Position numbers and translations under genes: made by a program | The notes under the pieces: generated by a model | What the model saw: the letters and a program-made list of their open reading frames with translations, nothing else | What the model was told of the DNA's origin: nothing | The model's database searches: none | Assembly: GCA_018823135.1 (NCBI GenBank) | Contig: JAHJJF010000151.1 | Location: forward strand, 1-53,617 | Direction of reading: 5' to 3' | Length of the DNA: 53,617 bases | Origin: Pseudomonadota bacterium | GTDB lineage: Bacteria; Desulfobacterota; Desulfobulbia; Desulfobulbales; CALZHT01 | In this document: one piece after another, positions 1,659 through 9,946 of the stretch | Layout: every line of letters starts with the position of its first letter | Position numbering within the stretch: the stretch's first letter is position 1

Positions 1659-3125
1659 CTAAAAATCCGTTATATAAGTGTAATCTGATTTTTTGGGGTC
1701 GTCATCGGTAAACCATACGCCATCAGTACCCGGATCTTCGAATCTTTCAAGGATGGTTATATTGCCGGCGGCGTCATAGGTGTAAGTATTATAGAACGAA
1801 AACTGATCATCATCGGTATGCCAGACACCGTCCGTTCCGGGGTCATTGCAGGAAGCAAGTTGTGTTAGTTGTCCGGCTGCATCGTAGGTTCTGTTTGTAT
1901 AAGACGATATGTCGTCGTCTGCGGTTTGCCACACCCCATCCGTCCCTGGCCCATTGAATCCAGTTTGGGCGAGTATATTCCCATTGGAGTCAATTACATT
2001 TGTGCCGTGATTTATTTTCAGGTCATCGGACGTAAACCAGATGCCATCCCCGCCTGCCCCATCGTAACTTATGGTCATAAGAGTGTTTCCAAAGGAGTCG
2101 TGGGAATAATCCGAATAATTTGCTACAGAATCATCATCGTTGAACCAGATGCCGTCGATGCCCGCATCGTTGATATATGCACTGCGGGTTTTATTGCCGA
2201 GGGTGTCAAAGGTGAAAATGTTATAAGAGTTTACGATATCATCATCGTTAAGCCAGATGCCATCGGCACCGGGGCCATTATTCACAAGGTGCGTCATATT
2301 ACCGGCAGCGTCATAAATGTTAGTACTATTATAGGTAATATCATCATTGGTAAACCAGATGCCGTCAGCGCCGGCAGTGTTATGTTGCAAACTGCGCGTC
2401 ATGTTGCCGGCAGCGTCATAAGTGTAAATATAATAGTCTGAAATCTGATCATCATCAGTATGCCAGACGGCGTCCGGTCCGGGTCCATTGTAGCTGTTCC
2501 TCTGTGTATTGTTACCGTCCGCGTCGTAAGCAGATGCACTGTAACCGCTTATATCGTCGTCAACGGTGAGCCATTCCAGGTCTGCTCCGGGACCGTTGTA
2601 GTATGCATATTGTGTCAAAAGTCCCGAGGCGTTATAGGTGTATGCGGTATACTGCGAAATACTGCCGGCTGCATAATTTATTATCTTATCAACCGGATTG
2701 TGAAAGGTATGAAAAGTGATTTCGAGATCAGCCAGGGCGCTGCCGGACAGGTAGCGAACACCCGCAATGTTCAGGATGTAGCTGACATCGTATCGTAATG
2801 GTTTTGAGGGGGAAAATATAACCGTATCGGTGACATCATCATAAGAAACATCGCCCTGGATCGGAAGCGCCTTGCCGAGGATTTTCAGGGTTACCGTGGT
2901 TTCATCGATGGTCGCAGGATCAAGTTCTATGGTGGAGGTTACTTTGATATCCGAAAGTACGCTGACAGAAGACGCCCCATCTTCGGGAAGAGCGGTTATT
3001 TCCCCTGCTGCCGGGGTGGAGTCGCCGCCGTCTGAGCCCCCGCCACAGCCCGACAACACCATTGTCAGGAAAATCGATATCAGTCCATAAATCCAAAAAG
3101 TCTTAAACATCCATCTGAAAGTCAT
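1659..3125 (-). CDS. Lipoprotein with SbsA-type Ig domain and nine 36-residue YD-like repeats
   Basis: Predicted lipoprotein: the signal peptide ends in the lipobox VLSGC, with lipidated Cys27. Residues about 41-145 look like a Big_5/SbsA Ig-like domain (PEDGASSVSVLSDIKVTST, ELDPATIDETTVTL, FSPSKPLRYDVSY). From about residue 159 to the C-terminus there are nine tandem repeats of roughly 36 residues. Each combines a YDAAGN core, as in RHS/YD repeats, with a second block of the form GPGADGIWFTxDDD. The acidic ends could bind calcium (inference). The start is supported by AGGAG seven bases upstream of the ATG. A surface or periplasmic structural role is likely; no enzymatic domain is visible. 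A GGTCACA direct-repeat site lies about 180 bp upstream. Confidence 0.8.
   Translation of the reverse strand: MTFRWMFKTFWIYGLISIFLTMVLSGCGGGSDGGDSTPAAGEITALPEDGASSVSVLSDIKVTSTIELDPATIDETTVTLKILGKALPIQGDVSYDDVTDTVIFSPSKPLRYDVSYILNIAGVRYLSGSALADLEITFHTFHNPVDKIINYAAGSISQYTAYTYNASGLLTQYAYYNGPGADLEWLTVDDDISGYSASAYDADGNNTQRNSYNGPGPDAVWHTDDDQISDYYIYTYDAAGNMTRSLQHNTAGADGIWFTNDDITYNSTNIYDAAGNMTHLVNNGPGADGIWLNDDDIVNSYNIFTFDTLGNKTRSAYINDAGIDGIWFNDDDSVANYSDYSHDSFGNTLMTISYDGAGGDGIWFTSDDLKINHGTNVIDSNGNILAQTGFNGPGTDGVWQTADDDISSYTNRTYDAAGQLTQLASCNDPGTDGVWHTDDDQFSFYNTYTYDAAGNITILERFEDPGTDGVWFTDDDPKKSDYTYITDF
1662..2651 (-). repeat. Nine tandem repeats of about 108 bp inside the lipoprotein gene
   Basis: The coding sequence repeats with a period of about 108 bp. 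Conserved stretches encode YDAAGN and (G/D)PG(A/T)DGxWxTxDD. Copies are diverged but recognisable; on the plus strand, segments such as cagatgccatc and gccggcggcgtcata recur. In-frame expansion and contraction by recombination is expected for such an array. Confidence 0.75.
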
Positions 3126-3290: not shown

Positions 3291-3324
3291 TGTATAACTG
3301 CCGGAAGGTCACAAACAGGTCACA
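3291..3324 (-). promoter_or_regulatory. Direct-repeat operator with -10-like box (candidate BTAD-regulator site)
   Basis: On the minus strand the unit reads TGTGACC-tgtt-TGTGACC (plus strand GGTCACA at 3307-3313 and 3318-3324). That is two identical heptads on an 11-bp repeat. Ten bases downstream on the minus strand is TATACA (3296-3291), a plausible -10 box. Streptomyces SARPs, which share the wHTH-BTAD architecture, bind heptameric direct repeats of this spacing just upstream of -10. The same sequence recurs at 6532-6548. The half-site resembles a CRP half-site, but the arrangement is direct, not palindromic. Confidence 0.55.
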
Positions 3325-3436
3325 GGGTGATTTTTTTGATTGGCGTCAAATTTTACCCTGTATTTTCGAGTGGTTGTAACAGAATTATTTTGCGAGGAAA
3401 GCTTACGGTTGCCGGTTTTTGCTTTAAGGAAATCAC

Positions 3437-3480
3437 AAAAAAGAGGAGCTGCCTCACTTCCGGGACAGCTCCTCTTTTTA
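3437..3480 (-). terminator. Intrinsic terminator, usable on both strands
   Basis: AAAAAAGAGGAGCTG (3437-3451) pairs with CAGCTCCTCTTTTT (3466-3479) around a 14-base loop. The T run lies on either side depending on strand. It sits 19 bp beyond the stop codon of the minus-strand gene ending at 3499, which it most likely serves. Confidence 0.85.
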
Positions 3481-3498
3481 TAATGCTTTGCTTATCGA

Positions 3499-6147
3499 TT
3501 ATTCCGCTTCATTTCCAGTGGTGAAATGGCGCGTATCGCTTGGTGTTTGACCGCCATTACCGTCGTCTGCCGCCACGGACCAGTAATAGGTCGTATCAGG
3601 GGCAAGGTTGCTGGCAGTAAAGCTGCCCTGGTTTGGGTCGTGATTGCCGCCGGAACACGAGACAAGAAGAACCCCGGCGGTCAACAGCATGCCGACTGCA
3701 AGGCCTTTTCTTCTCTGCAGGAAATGGGCGGCGCCAAGCACGGTCAGAGTGAATGCAAACAGCATCATAGTGCCGTTTCCAGGACCAGCAGGTATCTTTG
3801 GAGCGACAACCGCTGCTGTCGGATTCACATATGGCTGGCAGTTATTAAAAGGATCGCTGTCAGTGCAAAGGTAGAGTTCATAGGTCAACGGATCAGCGTC
3901 GGGATCAGTGCCTTTAAGATATGTCAGGGTCACCAGGGTGGTGGCCACTCCTTGCTGGCCGTTTGCCGGAGAAAGCAGCTGCGGCGCCGAAGGTGGATTG
4001 TTTGTTGCCGCCGAAAGGCCGGTGCCGCTGACGTTTATTGTTACCGGATTTTCGTCCGGGTCATTGGAAGGAATATCAAGACTGTCGCTGAAAGCTTCCG
4101 CAGCTATGGGAGCAAAGCGGACTGTGAACGTACAACTTGCCGACGGCGCAATGGTTTGCGTTGAGCAGTTATCATTAATAATTGTAAATGGCGCTGCCAG
4201 GGGATTATTCTGGGCGATCTGGCCGATTACAAGATCAGCGCTGCCGAGGTTTTCGATGGTCACCGTCTGTTCGCCTGAGACTCCAACCGTAAGATCAGCA
4301 AAGGGTATTATGTGGTCATCAGCCGGGGTCACGGAATCACTGACCGCGATATCCGCAACCGGTGTGGCAGCGCCGGTGCCGCTTACGTTCACTGTTACCG
4401 GGTTTTCGTCCGGGTCGTTGGAGGGAACATCGAAGCTGTCATTGAAGCTGCCGATTCCCAGAGGGGCGAAGCGGACCGTGAGGGTGCAATTTGCCGTCGG
4501 CGTCAGGGTTTGAGCCGAACAATTGTCATTAATGATGCTGTAAGGCGCGGCAAGAGTGTCGCTGGCCCCGACTGTGCCGAGCACGAGATCGGCATTGCCG
4601 TTGTTGGTGACGGTGACAACCTGATCGACGGTTGTATTTTCGGTGACAGAGCCAAAGGGAATCTGTAGAACATCAAGGGTGATATCAGGAGCGGGTGTAC
4701 CGATTCCGTTGCCGTGCAGCACCATGGTGACCGGGTTTTCGTCCACGTCATTGGAGGGGATGTCGAAACTTTCCACAAATGCATCGACCGCGTCCGGAGT
4801 AAAACGAACGGTGAATGTGCAGCTTGCATCCGGATTCAGGGTCTGTGATGAACAGGTATCGTTGAGAATGCTGAACGCACCTGCCACCGGGTTCGCCTGG
4901 GCAATGAGGCCTATGACAAGATCGGCGCTGCCGTCATTGGTGATGGTGACTGTCTGGTCTGATGAGGTGTTTAGGGTTACATCTCCGAAAACGACATCAA
5001 GGTCCGTTGCTGGTGCGGCTGAATCGGTGACGGTTATATCCGGCACAGGAGTTACAACGCCGCCGCCTTTTACCGGCCAGGCGTACCAACCATCCGGGAA
5101 AACCTTGAGTTTTGAAGTAGTTGCTAGTCCGCCATCGCCCATAGAAATATACCAGGCTGTGTCCGTACCATAATTAGTAGAAGTCCAATACACGCTATTT
5201 ACAGATGGAAGATTTACAAAAGAATGTCCGGGCGTCAACGCCGGCAATGATTGCGAATAGTCGATCAGGCTGCGCATCTCCACCCGATTGGGGAGATGCC
5301 ATTCACCAGCAGCTGAACCGTCGGTTAAGCCACAGAGGCCGTCTGCCAGACTGTTGGCATCTGCCAGAGCGTCATACCAGCCTTGTTTTCCGAAACATTC
5401 TGCATTTTTGAGCCAGATGAGAGTTGTGATATTGTCGGTGACTGTGCCATCGCCGTTGTCGCTAAACCGAGGGGACGGTAAGACCGCCCCTGCCTGGAAA
5501 TCTCCATCATCACCGGTCAAGTAACTGGTCGACTGTCCGGTGCGCAACACTTGGGCTGGCCCGGTTGAAGTGCCACGTACTGCCAGGAAATTAAAGCCCC
5601 CGCTGACTTTATTATAGGTCAAGGTGTAATCGCTACTTAGTTCCACACGCCAAACCTTTGTAGTATCATAGGCATAAGTAGTGGAGGTAACATAATCTAC
5701 ATCCTGCACATTAATGAACCCCTGGGTATTCAACCAGGTAACTGTATTGTCCCCAGAGTTTATCAGGCTTCGCAGCTCATTTATATTGGGAAGCCGCCAG
5801 TCGCCTAAGGCTGAACCATCCGTCAGTCCGCATACGTTGTTTTGTAAAACAGAATTAGCATAGGTTAAAGCATCCGGAAAATTTAAATATCCGAAACAGT
5901 TTGCATTCTGAAGCCAGATGAGTCCGGTGAGATTGTCGGTTAAGGTGCCGTCACCATTGTCGGTAAACCTTGGATCGGGCCAGGCGAGTCCCGCCTGGGT
6001 GTCGCCATCCTGACCGGTGTTTGTACAGTTAATCGTACCGAAGTTATCCCGGCAGGTCGTCTGGCCTGTCTTCGGAAGATCTACGGCACTGGCAAAACCC
6101 GCCCACAGAAACATACACATAAGCTGAATAATAATTTTTTGAGCCAT
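3499..6147 (-). CDS. Exported multidomain protein: two DUF1566 domains, three choice-of-anchor D domains, Fn3-like domain
   Basis: Signal peptide MAQKIIIQLMCMFLWAGFASA. Residues about 50-195 and 210-365 are two DUF1566/Lcl C-terminal domains (RFTDNGDGTLTDNLTGLIWL, DWRLPNINELRSLI; then DNGDGTVTDN, EWHLPNRVEMRSLID). Residues about 370-705 hold three choice-of-anchor D/ASPM-like Ig repeats, each with a version of NPVTINVSGTG. The end is a fibronectin-III-like domain (PPSAPQLLSPANGQ, then LAPDTTYYWSVAADDGNGG). This domain is interrupted at about residues 775-835 by two hydrophobic segments flanking QRRKG and a Cys in a lipobox-like LLVSC. It is probably surface-attached or periplasmic. Ribosome site GAGGTGA precedes the ATG. 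The 73-residue gene lies upstream on the same strand, 138 bp away. Confidence 0.8.
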   Translation of the reverse strand: MAQKIIIQLMCMFLWAGFASAVDLPKTGQTTCRDNFGTINCTNTGQDGDTQAGLAWPDPRFTDNGDGTLTDNLTGLIWLQNANCFGYLNFPDALTYANSVLQNNVCGLTDGSALGDWRLPNINELRSLINSGDNTVTWLNTQGFINVQDVDYVTSTTYAYDTTKVWRVELSSDYTLTYNKVSGGFNFLAVRGTSTGPAQVLRTGQSTSYLTGDDGDFQAGAVLPSPRFSDNGDGTVTDNITTLIWLKNAECFGKQGWYDALADANSLADGLCGLTDGSAAGEWHLPNRVEMRSLIDYSQSLPALTPGHSFVNLPSVNSVYWTSTNYGTDTAWYISMGDGGLATTSKLKVFPDGWYAWPVKGGGVVTPVPDITVTDSAAPATDLDVVFGDVTLNTSSDQTVTITNDGSADLVIGLIAQANPVAGAFSILNDTCSSQTLNPDASCTFTVRFTPDAVDAFVESFDIPSNDVDENPVTMVLHGNGIGTPAPDITLDVLQIPFGSVTENTTVDQVVTVTNNGNADLVLGTVGASDTLAAPYSIINDNCSAQTLTPTANCTLTVRFAPLGIGSFNDSFDVPSNDPDENPVTVNVSGTGAATPVADIAVSDSVTPADDHIIPFADLTVGVSGEQTVTIENLGSADLVIGQIAQNNPLAAPFTIINDNCSTQTIAPSASCTFTVRFAPIAAEAFSDSLDIPSNDPDENPVTINVSGTGLSAATNNPPSAPQLLSPANGQQGVATTLVTLTYLKGTDPDADPLTYELYLCTDSDPFNNCQPYVNPTAAVVAPKIPAGPGNGTMMLFAFTLTVLGAAHFLQRRKGLAVGMLLTAGVLLVSCSGGNHDPNQGSFTASNLAPDTTYYWSVAADDGNGGQTPSDTRHFTTGNEAE

Positions 6148-6219
6148 ACATTCACCTCATTCTTAAGCTTGTTTTTCGTTTATAATCTGGCAGTATTTCG
6201 CCTTTCGTCTTATTCAACC

Positions 6220-6242
6220 TGGGCCGGGGGCCCACTTTTTTT
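6220..6242 (+). terminator. Short hairpin with T run, plus-strand orientation
   Basis: TGGGCC-GGG-GGCCCA (6220-6234) is followed by CTTTTTTT. It is terminator-like on the plus strand, although both neighbouring genes are on the minus strand. If active it would stop antisense transcription; it may also be coincidental. Confidence 0.35.
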
Positions 6243-6285
6243 GATTATTATCGAAGCTGCTGCTTTTGTTTCTCTCTTGGACGAC

Positions 6286-6507
6286 TCATCTTCTGCCGCC
6301 TTGACGTGAGCCAATTTTTTCCTTGGTCAAAATATTCCAGAGTTCGTCCGGGTCCGTAAACGAAACCCGCTCGCCGCTTTCTGCATATTCAACAGTCCCG
6401 AGGATTTCCGTTTGAGCGTCAGGCAACTGCTTTCTGTTCCGCCTGTAGATGCGAACAAGATAACTTTCCAGGAGCTTGGTGCCTGATGAGCATGGAGAAT
6501 CTTTCAT
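6286..6507 (-). CDS. Small conserved-looking protein of unknown function beside a BTAD regulator
   Basis: A 73-residue soluble protein with a basic middle (ESYLVRIYRRNRKQ) and an acidic, aromatic end (VSFTDPDELWNIL). I recall similar LVRIYRR...LW.IL small proteins in deltaproteobacterial genomes but know no function for them. ATG 6507 is preferred over GTG 6525, because 6525 falls inside the putative promoter: heptad repeats at 6531-6548 and a -10-like TAAATT at 6520-6515. That would make the transcript nearly leaderless. It may be co-transcribed with the 882-residue protein downstream, and its own regulator may be the large activator gene ending at 6731. Confidence 0.6.
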   Translation of the reverse strand: MKDSPCSSGTKLLESYLVRIYRRNRKQLPDAQTEILGTVEYAESGERVSFTDPDELWNILTKEKIGSRQGGRR

Positions 6508-6514
6508 ACTGGTG

Positions 6515-6548
6515 AATTTACTCACCGGCGAGTCACAAACAGGTCACA
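6515..6548 (-). promoter_or_regulatory. Second GGTCACA direct-repeat operator with -10-like box
   Basis: Plus strand AGTCACA (6531-6537), aaca, GGTCACA (6542-6548). Seventeen consecutive bases (6532-6548) are identical to 3308-3324. On the minus strand, ten bases separate the repeat from TAAATT (6520-6515). This is the same spacing as at the other site, which argues that the whole arrangement is selected and not only the repeat. Confidence 0.55.
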
Positions 6549-6730: not shown

Positions 6731-9700
6731 TTACCTGGAAACGATGCGTTGGCGGAGTGATTGGGTCTTTGCCGAGGGTTCAATGCCAAAGGCATCGGAT
6801 AACTGCTCGCAACACCTGGTATACACGGCAAGGGCACGGGAGGAGTCGCCAAGTGAAACGTAGCATTCCATTAACCCCTGGTAATATTCTTCGGTGAGCG
6901 GATCAAGCTCCAGGGCTTTTTCATAGAGCGGAGTCAATGCCAGACAATCACCGCTCTGCTTGAAAATGGCCATAAGGCGCTCTATCGTCCGCAGCACTTT
7001 AAGGTGCAACCTCTCCCGCGGCCCGATAGCCCACCCTGCCTGTGCATCGTTGACCAGAAAGGGCCCTTTGTAGAGAGAAAGTGATTGTTGTATCTGTTCA
7101 AATGCCGCATTTCTAGAATCCGTCGGGCCGGCAAGCAGCTTTTCCACCTCGCCGAGATTTCTTTCCAGCGCCCAGGTATCGACCCAGCAACGCCGGTCAT
7201 CAATGGTCAGTTTGCCGTGGTTCATCACCAGGATGTCGCCGGGAATAATTTTTCGCAACCGCGACAGCGTCGTGGTGAATGAGCTGTGGGCTGCGTCGCC
7301 GTCGGCGTCGGGCCACAAACAATCGGCAAGTTTTTCCTCGGGCACCGCGCGTCCGCCAAAGGCGATCATGGCCATCAGCAGTTCAAGGGTTTTTTTACCC
7401 GTCTTAACGTTTAAGCGAAGCGATCTGTCTTCCACCACAATGCTGAAACGGCCCAGGGTGTAGATTCTGACCTCCCACGGCCAGTTCGTCAAATGCAGAG
7501 GCGGACTTTTCGGCACTACCTTTCGTTTGCGGATCATCTTCCGGACATGCGCTGTTTCCAGGTCGTTTTCCAGGGCCGTGATCAGGAGATTGTTCATGGT
7601 TTGGGGACGCCACCAGTCAAGATTGTAGATCTCTTTGGCTCTGCCGATGGCCAGTCCTTGGGCCAGAAATTTCAAACCCTTCTTTTTCAGCCCTTGTACA
7701 AAGGCCAGTTCCGCCAGGCCAAGATGCCGGGAATAATCGAGGTAAAGACTCTTGATATGTGCTGCTATTTCACCGGCCCGGTTGAAATATTGCTCAGCTT
7801 CATCATATCGTGCCAGTTCAATCAAAACCGCTCCCATGCCAATGGTGCTGAGCCCTTCAGGAAAGACCCCACCTCGTTCGATGGCAAAGTCCAGTGACTT
7901 TTTCATATGGATCAGAGCGCGTTCTTCTTCATTATCGGCAAGGGCATAAAGTGCCGCCACGAAGTTGAAGTGCCCTTGGTTGAGTTTACCGAATAGATCT
8001 TTCACCGCAGATAATTTGGCCAAGGCTCGGCACCGTTCTTCCGGGTCGGCTGATTCCAGGGTAAGATAGCAGTTCTGAGCCCGCAGAACAAAATCAAAGA
8101 TGTGAATGCCGGATTTATCCGCCAATGCCAACCCTTTATTCGCCCTGGCGGAACTTTTCTCAAAATCTCCATTCAGCCAGTAAAACATGGCCTCGGTTTG
8201 CAGCCAGGGCAGGAGATAGAAAGGTTCGACCTTGTCGAGATCAGCACCGTGCACCATGTGATTGATAAAAATGGTTGCCTCGGAAAACGATCCCATCCAT
8301 ATGAGATAGATCAGATATTGGGTGGCCATGGCAAAGCGGTGGTTGATATTGGGCGCGGTTTTACAGATCATTGCTACCTGTTCCGACCACTTGGGCATAT
8401 CAGCGTGTCCCGGCGAACGGTACAGCAGGAGGCCGAACATACCGAATGCCACCCGGGCCAGTATCTCCGGAGAGGAGATGGACGGTTTCCCGGCAAGAAA
8501 ATCATCCATCCAGATCTTCCAGTCATCCAGCGGCGCAAAGTCATCCCATATGAAGAAATGGGAATCGATCATTCCGGCCCAACTCAGGCACATCCCATCC
8601 TCAAGCTTTTCTTTCTCAAATGTATGCAATGCTTCTTTAAATCGACGGCGGGCCGCCAGTGGATCCACCGAAAGCAGTGCCGTGCCGGCCCAGTAGTTAA
8701 TCCACGGGGCTTTTTGATGAGCAGGTGGAAGGGCGTCAACAAGAGAAAGCAGTGCCCGGAAACGGCCCTGTTCAAGGTAGGGTCGGCTGTTGGCGAGGAT
8801 GAATTCGCTCAGGCCGATCCAGTCTTCGGCGTCTTGCAGCAGAAGGGATGCCTCTTCAGCCATTCCATCCTCCAGGAGCAGGGCGGCCGCCTGTCGCTGC
8901 AGGTCCTGGATATGTTCGCGGGGATACGCAACTTTTCCTTTTTCCAGAAGAAATTCTCGAAACATCGGGTGGAACTGGTAGATCGCGGTGACCGGATCAT
9001 GGCGGGTGGTAAAATATCCATTTTTATGAAATTTCTTTATCAGGTCGCCGGCCTGTCCGTCGCCGGTAAGGGCGTTCACTGAAACACTGGTCATCTCCGG
9101 CAGGAGTGCCGACTTGAGAAGGATGTCCCTCTGGGGATTCGGCATACGGTTGAAAACTTCCTCGGACAGAAATGAAAAGACCTCCTCAGGGGATGAATGA
9201 GGAACTTTGTTGTTCATGTCGCTTACAAAATCAAACCGAGAGTGCAGAACCATACCGGCGACCCAGCCGTGATATTTTGCTTGTATGGCATCGATGTCTT
9301 CCGGTGTAAGGGTTTGGGGATGTCGTGCAGATAAAAACGCTTCGGTTTCATCCCTGGTGAATTCCAGGTCATGATTTGTGATAAAAGACAAGGATTGCCC
9401 GGCTGTGAGGCGCACGAATGAAGGCGTCGAAGGCTCACGGCTGATAAAAATGATACGCCCCTCTTCCGGCAGGATCTCGGCTGCGACCCGCAACATGTCA
9501 TGGACCTGTGCGTCGGGCGCCAGGATCTGGTAGTTGTCAAAGACCATGACAAAACCTTTGGGTAAAACCTGGTAAATCTCTTCAAAATAGTTGCGGCTGA
9601 ATGTGGCCAGGTCAAAGTTGTATTCCGGTGTCAAGCAAGGGAGTTGCTTGCGATAACGGGGAGCACTCTGCCTGACGGCAAGGTTGAGGAAATTGATAAA

Positions 9701-9946
9701 GGTGGCCGGATCACTATCCCGTTCATCGATCTGATACCAGAGAGGCTTGATGCGACGCTCTTTCAGATAACTGCAAACAGCCCAGGTTTTGCCCTGGCCC
9801 GGCGGCGCATATACCCAGACAACAGGTTTGGTGCAGGCCTGGTCAAAAAGTGAAAAGACCCGCAAGCGCTTGAGATAATGCTCCAGCCGTGGGAATTTGA
9901 TTTTTACGGGAACCGGCGGCTTGGCTGAGGGCGTTTTTTTTGTCAT
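6731..9946 (-). CDS. BTAD-domain transcriptional activator with MalT-like ATPase and TPR region
   Basis: A 1071-residue regulator of LuxR-LAL/MalT-like build at the N-terminus and SARP build at the C-terminus. Walker A is APPGQGKTW (residues about 47-55) and Walker B is GFVMVFDNYQIL (about 134-145). A long helical, TPR/MalT-like repeat region spans about 340-800. It ends in an OmpR-like winged helix (about 828-925: IYTLGRFSIVVEDR, KKTLELLMAMIAFGG, SSFTTTLSRLRKII) and a BTAD domain (about 940-1068, SLYKGPFLVND, EEYYQGLMECYVSLGD). Such proteins sense a small molecule or protein through the TPR region and activate nearby promoters. Two sites of SARP geometry upstream of adjacent minus-strand genes are the obvious candidate targets. 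The ligand is unknown. Confidence 0.88.
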   Translation of the reverse strand: MTKKTPSAKPPVPVKIKFPRLEHYLKRLRVFSLFDQACTKPVVWVYAPPGQGKTWAVCSYLKERRIKPLWYQIDERDSDPATFINFLNLAVRQSAPRYRKQLPCLTPEYNFDLATFSRNYFEEIYQVLPKGFVMVFDNYQILAPDAQVHDMLRVAAEILPEEGRIIFISREPSTPSFVRLTAGQSLSFITNHDLEFTRDETEAFLSARHPQTLTPEDIDAIQAKYHGWVAGMVLHSRFDFVSDMNNKVPHSSPEEVFSFLSEEVFNRMPNPQRDILLKSALLPEMTSVSVNALTGDGQAGDLIKKFHKNGYFTTRHDPVTAIYQFHPMFREFLLEKGKVAYPREHIQDLQRQAAALLLEDGMAEEASLLLQDAEDWIGLSEFILANSRPYLEQGRFRALLSLVDALPPAHQKAPWINYWAGTALLSVDPLAARRRFKEALHTFEKEKLEDGMCLSWAGMIDSHFFIWDDFAPLDDWKIWMDDFLAGKPSISSPEILARVAFGMFGLLLYRSPGHADMPKWSEQVAMICKTAPNINHRFAMATQYLIYLIWMGSFSEATIFINHMVHGADLDKVEPFYLLPWLQTEAMFYWLNGDFEKSSARANKGLALADKSGIHIFDFVLRAQNCYLTLESADPEERCRALAKLSAVKDLFGKLNQGHFNFVAALYALADNEEERALIHMKKSLDFAIERGGVFPEGLSTIGMGAVLIELARYDEAEQYFNRAGEIAAHIKSLYLDYSRHLGLAELAFVQGLKKKGLKFLAQGLAIGRAKEIYNLDWWRPQTMNNLLITALENDLETAHVRKMIRKRKVVPKSPPLHLTNWPWEVRIYTLGRFSIVVEDRSLRLNVKTGKKTLELLMAMIAFGGRAVPEEKLADCLWPDADGDAAHSSFTTTLSRLRKIIPGDILVMNHGKLTIDDRRCWVDTWALERNLGEVEKLLAGPTDSRNAAFEQIQQSLSLYKGPFLVNDAQAGWAIGPRERLHLKVLRTIERLMAIFKQSGDCLALTPLYEKALELDPLTEEYYQGLMECYVSLGDSSRALAVYTRCCEQLSDAFGIEPSAKTQSLRQRIVSR

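Follow-up and report, generated by a model that had tools for sequence, protein, structure and literature searches.

Paired 11-bp heptad repeats beside a STAND-BTAD regulator: probable operators of a local SARP-like activator

Two copies of one short sequence next to a large regulator gene raise the question of whether they are binding sites of that regulator and, if so, which genes it would control. In the window (the whole 53,617-nt stretch of DNA that was analysed), the 17-mer TGTGACCTGTTTGTGAC stands on the minus strand at both 3308-3324 and 6532-6548. These coordinates, given in a first-pass annotation of the sequence, were correct on direct reading, as were the -10-like hexamers (TATACA and TAAATT) that it had placed ten bases past each repeat on the minus strand. 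In full, the minus strand has TGTGACC-TGTT-TGTGACC-TTCCGGCAGT-TATACA at site A and TGTGACC-TGTT-TGTGACT-CGCCGGTGAG-TAAATT at site B. The same annotation had described two identical GGTCACA heptad operators; the 17-base identity holds, but on the plus strand site B has AGTCACA as its second heptad, which differs from GGTCACA by one base. The features of the locus are as follows.

1659-3125, minus strand: 488-aa lipoprotein with Ig-like Big_5 and RHS-like DGVWxTDDD repeats (domain matches), putative target of promoter A
3291-3296, minus strand: predicted -10 of promoter A, TATACA (40-site alignment)
3307-3324, minus strand: putative operator A, TGTGACC-N4-TGTGACC (window sequence, genome scan, leave-one-out scan)
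3438-3479, no strand: terminator-like 14-bp perfect inverted repeat with runs of A and T, which separates operator A from the 882-aa gene
3499-6147, minus strand: 882-aa exported protein with Lcl_C and choice-of-anchor D domains (domain matches; signal-peptide-like N-terminus)
6286-6507, minus strand: 73-aa conserved small protein (profile match 2.2e-21 in its own genome; 35 aligned members)
6515-6520, minus strand: predicted -10 of promoter B, TAAATT, with TGAG upstream (extended -10 like; fixed position in the 40-site alignment)
6531-6548, minus strand: putative operator B, TGTGACC-N4-TGTGACT, two direct repeats with an 11-bp period (window sequence, genome scan, leave-one-out scan)
6731-9946, minus strand: 1071-aa regulator with a MalT-like STAND NTPase (residues 12-409), a helical/TPR-like middle and an OmpR-type wHTH plus BTAD (818-1071) (Pfam, NCBIfam, Foldseek)
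7247-7300, minus strand: recognition helix of the wHTH, residues 883-900 with core AAHSSFTTTLSRLRK (AlphaFold2, helix 66-83 of the 818-1071 model), which holds residues 888, 891, 892, 895 and 899

Read leftward, the order is regulator, operator B, 73-aa gene, 882-aa gene, hairpin, operator A and lipoprotein gene. The 882-aa gene probably shares a transcript with the 73-aa gene, and the lipoprotein gene would have its own promoter because the terminator-like hairpin splits the two units. The lipoprotein start codon lies ~165 nt downstream of the -10 of promoter A; the RHS-like repeats of the protein itself number about nine and follow the motif DG(V/I)W-x-(T/N)-x-DD. The ATG of the 73-aa gene follows the end of the predicted -10 hexamer by seven bases (window 6505-6520), so its predicted mRNA would have no leader or almost none.

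The regulator resembles MalT in its N-terminal part and AfsR in its C-terminal part. Its Pfam BTAD match (2.9e-21) and its predicted fold give it the wHTH-then-BTAD module of the SARP family: AlphaFold2 modelled the C-terminal 254 residues (818-1071) with a mean pLDDT of 94.7, and Foldseek matched this model to AfsR (8k60, its complex with RNA polymerase; E 5.5e-11, ~250 columns; also 8hvr) and to EmbR. AfsR and other large SARPs of Streptomyces, including SARP-LAL proteins such as PimR, likewise carry STAND/NOD and TPR-type domains attached to this homologous module. The SARP module is N-terminal in that family, whereas here the order is STAND, TPR-like, wHTH-BTAD, the reverse of AfsR, with the module last in the protein, and the host is not an actinomycete. 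The N-terminus is of the MalT type, matching structure 8bob (1.1e-20) and containing the P-loop APPGQGKT in its STAND NTPase. Against NCBIfam the regulator matched MalT at 1.3e-50 and AfsR at 1.8e-14; the MalT match is partial (residues 12-409), its 172 bits are far under the family cut-off of 537 bits, and the protein ends in wHTH-BTAD where MalT has a LuxR-type HTH. EmbR from Mycobacterium tuberculosis shares the wHTH-BTAD fold (2ff4, 2fez) but carries an FHA domain at its C-terminus and lacks a STAND module. The regulator is thus SARP-like in having a homologous SARP module, yet it is outside both the SARP layout and the MalT layout. A second BTAD protein, an open frame of 1469 aa, is encoded in the same genome (G000:C65:38788-39174, L146).

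Comparative evidence came from homologues of the regulator, about 30-36% identical, in 35 of 395 genomes sampled from the phylum, with others in a set of relatives and one in a Nitrospirae MAG (L022; contig scan, one homologue); 45 regulator loci formed the comparative set. Exact heptad repeats in the intergenic DNA of these loci most commonly had a period of 11 bp (23), with 17 at 8 bp and 2-15 at each remaining period from 9 to 30. A position-weight-matrix search of the same DNA, with TGTRAC-N5-TGTRAC as its sole seed, converged on ccaaTCTGTaacC-nATcTGTnAcc-N10-tgnTAtnnT, in which the extended -10 emerged unseeded and at a constant spacing from the repeat pair. The period was 11 bp in 40 of 40 aligned sites, and operators of the SARP family are heptameric direct repeats at 11 or 22 bp (PMC10972967, PMC10936776). 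A TTGACA-like -35 element at 16-18 bp was absent from the consensus of the 40 promoters. The end of the heptad is ten bases from the hexamer, as against 8 bp to the -10 in the SARP family, a value that hinges on how the heptad is framed; if the afsS -10 lies at -12 to -7, which is our assumption, a repeat start 17 nt before the -10 fits the register of the afs box.

We then scored each locus by a leave-one-out scan of both strands, coding DNA included, at a threshold of 10 bits. A site of at least 10 bits was the top hit in 40 of 45 loci, where the scoring was held out and the choice of motif was not, the training loci having been picked by the same motif search. Thirty-three of these 40 top sites were within 1.5 kb 3' of the regulator and on the same strand, the typical site being just 3' of the regulator gene and directed away from it, and operators A and B took ranks 1 and 2 in the window's first 18 kb. 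In three of the five loci that failed, the contig ends shortly beyond the regulator; the other two (L086 and L088) have complete flanks yet no site. The first-pass annotation had named the absence of the repeat upstream of orthologous genes in relatives as an outcome that would undo its reading; related repeats instead lie next to 40 of the 45 regulator genes compared and upstream of almost every gene for a homologue of the 73-aa protein.

Some cassettes (L073 in G104, L059 in G329 and L075 in G371) contain two sites with similar heptads, one of which precedes the regulator gene or a divergent gene pair, which suggests small regulons or autoregulation. At L113 and L089 (G103:C303), TCTATCC repeats replace TGTnnn, so that the TGT core itself is changed.

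Variation within the heptads is informative about the protein that may bind them. Positions 1-3 (TGT) are nearly invariant and positions 4-6 vary by locus; TGTGACC, previously given as the operator, is right for this window but represents a locus-specific variant of a general TGTnnn rule. The two repeats of a site agree at positions 4, 5 and 6 in 86, 78 and 76% of loci, compared with 40, 54 and 40% after shuffling, and the observed level was reached in 0 of 5000 shuffles. Mutual information between heptad and protein was computed over 1046 regulator columns. Residues 899 and 895 ranked first and second for position 4, residue 892 second for position 5, and residues 891 and 888 first and fourth for position 6. 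All five are in one helix, the recognition helix, and this 15-residue helix takes six of the 30 top-ten slots (P about 4e-6); columns 651, 658 and 289, outside the helix, also ranked high. An acidic residue at 891 (E/D) occurred with G at position 6 in 8 of 8 cases, vs 1 of 29 otherwise (Fisher 2.3e-7). Common ancestry can inflate covariation of this kind, but it is shared by all protein columns and the recognition helix is still top-ranked.

These residues also have counterparts in a solved complex. In a phmmer alignment, 891, 892, 895 and 899 align with AfsR R87, T88, S91 and K95, which contact DNA through base or backbone (PMC10936776). AfsR T88 touches repeat position 5 and R92 the T of repeat position 3 (PMC10936776); here 892, the counterpart of T88, covaries with heptad position 5, and R896, the counterpart of R92, is nearly invariant across the regulator loci, as is the T of position 3. 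From sequence, then, the covariation ties the sites to the adjacent regulator and not to another protein, and supports the earlier suggestion that the sites of this wHTH-BTAD protein are 11-bp heptad repeats next to a -10. Outside the covariation analysis, L122/L144 has a helix (AYSALTTTLSRLRQ) close to AAHSSFTTTLSRLRK and a CGTGACC/TGTGACT site, as expected, and L125 (TGTGAGT repeats) had no wHTH match in its stretch. L142 (G331:C24:1129) and L085, on the same contig, have two sites ~14 kb apart; both use an unusual heptad, GTG[TG]G, consistent with the E891 regulator located between them.

Two heptad patterns were also scanned for across whole genomes. GTGAC-N5-TGTGAC-N11-TA had seven sites in exactly five of 16 whole genomes and none in the other 11, and the five are exactly those whose cassette has this heptad type, with serine at helix residue 888 and serine or asparagine at 895. 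GTAG-N6-TGTAG, a shorter and less specific pattern, matched the expected G003, G314 and G329 cassettes and also three places, one in G184 and two in G199, that belong to no cassette. The genome search for the repeat that the first-pass annotation had proposed found two places, both in the regulator cassette: in the whole 3.6-Mb genome (95% complete), sites A and B were the only matches to TGTGAC-N5-TGTGAC without mismatch and the only matches to the pattern including the -10 bases with up to one mismatch. Allowing two mismatches added three two-mismatch matches elsewhere, and we rejected a larger regulon in this genome on these scans. The likely regulon of the annotation is retained as two promoters near the regulator, small and local, with no further genome sites at up to one mismatch. 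When the local intergenic DNA was shuffled with its dinucleotides preserved, 2 of 2000 trials produced a direct repeat of at least 17 bases. By arithmetic, 12 fixed bases are expected ~0.4 times in the genome on both strands, so the exact pair carries information but would not settle the matter alone; the deciding weight is the comparative evidence.

We conclude that the repeats are very probably the two operators of the neighbouring STAND-BTAD regulator, a local SARP-like activator with a dedicated promoter type. In the mechanism we propose, the N-terminal STAND NTPase would switch to an active form and two C-terminal wHTH-BTAD modules would bind in tandem, one per 11-bp repeat, with the recognition helix reading TGTGAC. 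The bound modules would occupy the place of the missing -35 box and, in the manner of AfsR, bring RNA polymerase with its sigma factor to the -10. Their binding would switch on the 73-aa gene and probably the 882-aa exported protein gene as one unit and the 488-aa lipoprotein gene as another. AfsR and the large SARPs likewise use 11-bp direct repeats over the -35 region, with corresponding DNA-contact positions; here, however, the heptad is TGTnnn and not the afs box, and the regulator-adjacent operators would serve a small protein and exported proteins, not antibiotic clusters.

The choice of activation over repression is made by analogy with AfsR and from the missing -35. A regulator that binds the operators as a repressor, with the STAND switch freeing the promoter, is improbable in our judgement. 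Its sites are in the -35 region, where bound protein could obstruct sigma region 4, and an extended -10 can function without a -35; but AfsR, a BTAD protein with a solved RNA polymerase complex, activates from the same position (PMC10936776), and a consensus of 40 promoters with no -35 box is what activator-dependent promoters would have.

Binding by PhoB or another OmpR-family response regulator is less credible again. The pho box, CTGTCAT-N4-CTGTCAC, consists of 11-bp repeats about 10 bp from the -10, so that the CTGTnAC heptad core, the period and the -10 distance all resemble the sites described here, PhoB shares the OmpR-type wHTH, and its CTGTnAn heptads are direct repeats as well. AfsR and PhoP sites also overlap in Streptomyces (PMC10972967). 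However, the regulator here is not a response regulator, the sites are restricted to loci of BTAD regulators and small-protein genes, and the heptads change by locus with the recognition helix of the adjacent regulator, which would be unexpected for a single global regulator. Pho control would have sites across the genome, and the two found are both in the regulator cassette. We rejected a pho box on this confinement and on the helix covariation. That the pair of repeats arose by chance or recombination with no regulatory role is barely conceivable, given that, against the chance expectation above and the possibility that one upstream region is a copy of the other, the same architecture with coupled repeats and a fixed -10 recurs at 40 of 45 homologous loci and the shuffles rarely produced such a repeat; the comparative data rule it out as a full explanation, and a copying event could be the origin of the second site.

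The 73-aa protein behind operator B belongs to a family of ~70 aa with the motif YxVRIYR...GxVE...F...ELWxIL. Members occur in 23 of the 395 sampled genomes, and 15 of these 23 are among the 35 with the regulator (chance about 2, P 2e-12); a plasmid collection yielded none. Among copies identified by HMM profile alone, nearly all are preceded by a repeat site at a distance of 8-260 nt, in most cases the rank-1 site of the locus. This extends to copies whose fetched stretch lacks a regulator (L119/L135, L126, L129 and L142); the exceptions are L117 (a weak hit), L132 and, with poor scores, L113 and L123. The protein from the window is predicted to fold as beta-beta-beta-alpha in a model of moderate confidence (pLDDT 70), which had no significant match in the PDB, and its sequence matched nothing in Pfam or NCBIfam. 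Three of 35 family members match DUF7889 (PF25417; best E 3.4e-5), whereas the window's protein and most other members do not. The first longer gene past the site looks exported in 24 of 39 cases, compared with 129 of 473 ORFs generally (P 3e-5, by a crude signal-peptide rule).

Because the small protein is often the first gene of the target operon, its position suggests feedback on the regulator or a role as co-factor. Genomes G345, G417 and G306 (L057, L082, L096, L128, L130 and others) each contain five or six copies. Most of these copies have a site of their own in front of them, and the heptads differ, as though the paralogous cassettes were insulated from each other. It is possible, if on balance doubtful, that regulator, private promoter and ~70-aa protein form a self-contained and repeatedly duplicated cassette in which feedback on the STAND-BTAD activator, or co-regulation with it, is the dedicated role of the small protein and a helix-to-heptad code separates the paralogues.

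We found no prior description of the regulator class or of the small protein in open-access papers, which is weak evidence of novelty. SARP-type control has so far been described almost entirely from antibiotic producers, and here a STAND-SARP regulator of reversed domain order is spread through another phylum, and is also present in a Nitrospirae MAG, with its promoter alongside. The adjacent, recognisable promoter would make the targets of uncharacterised regulators predictable and link an unnamed family of small proteins to a regulatory role. A natural specificity code of a wHTH that binds tandem repeats may be useful for understanding and designing orthogonal promoters.
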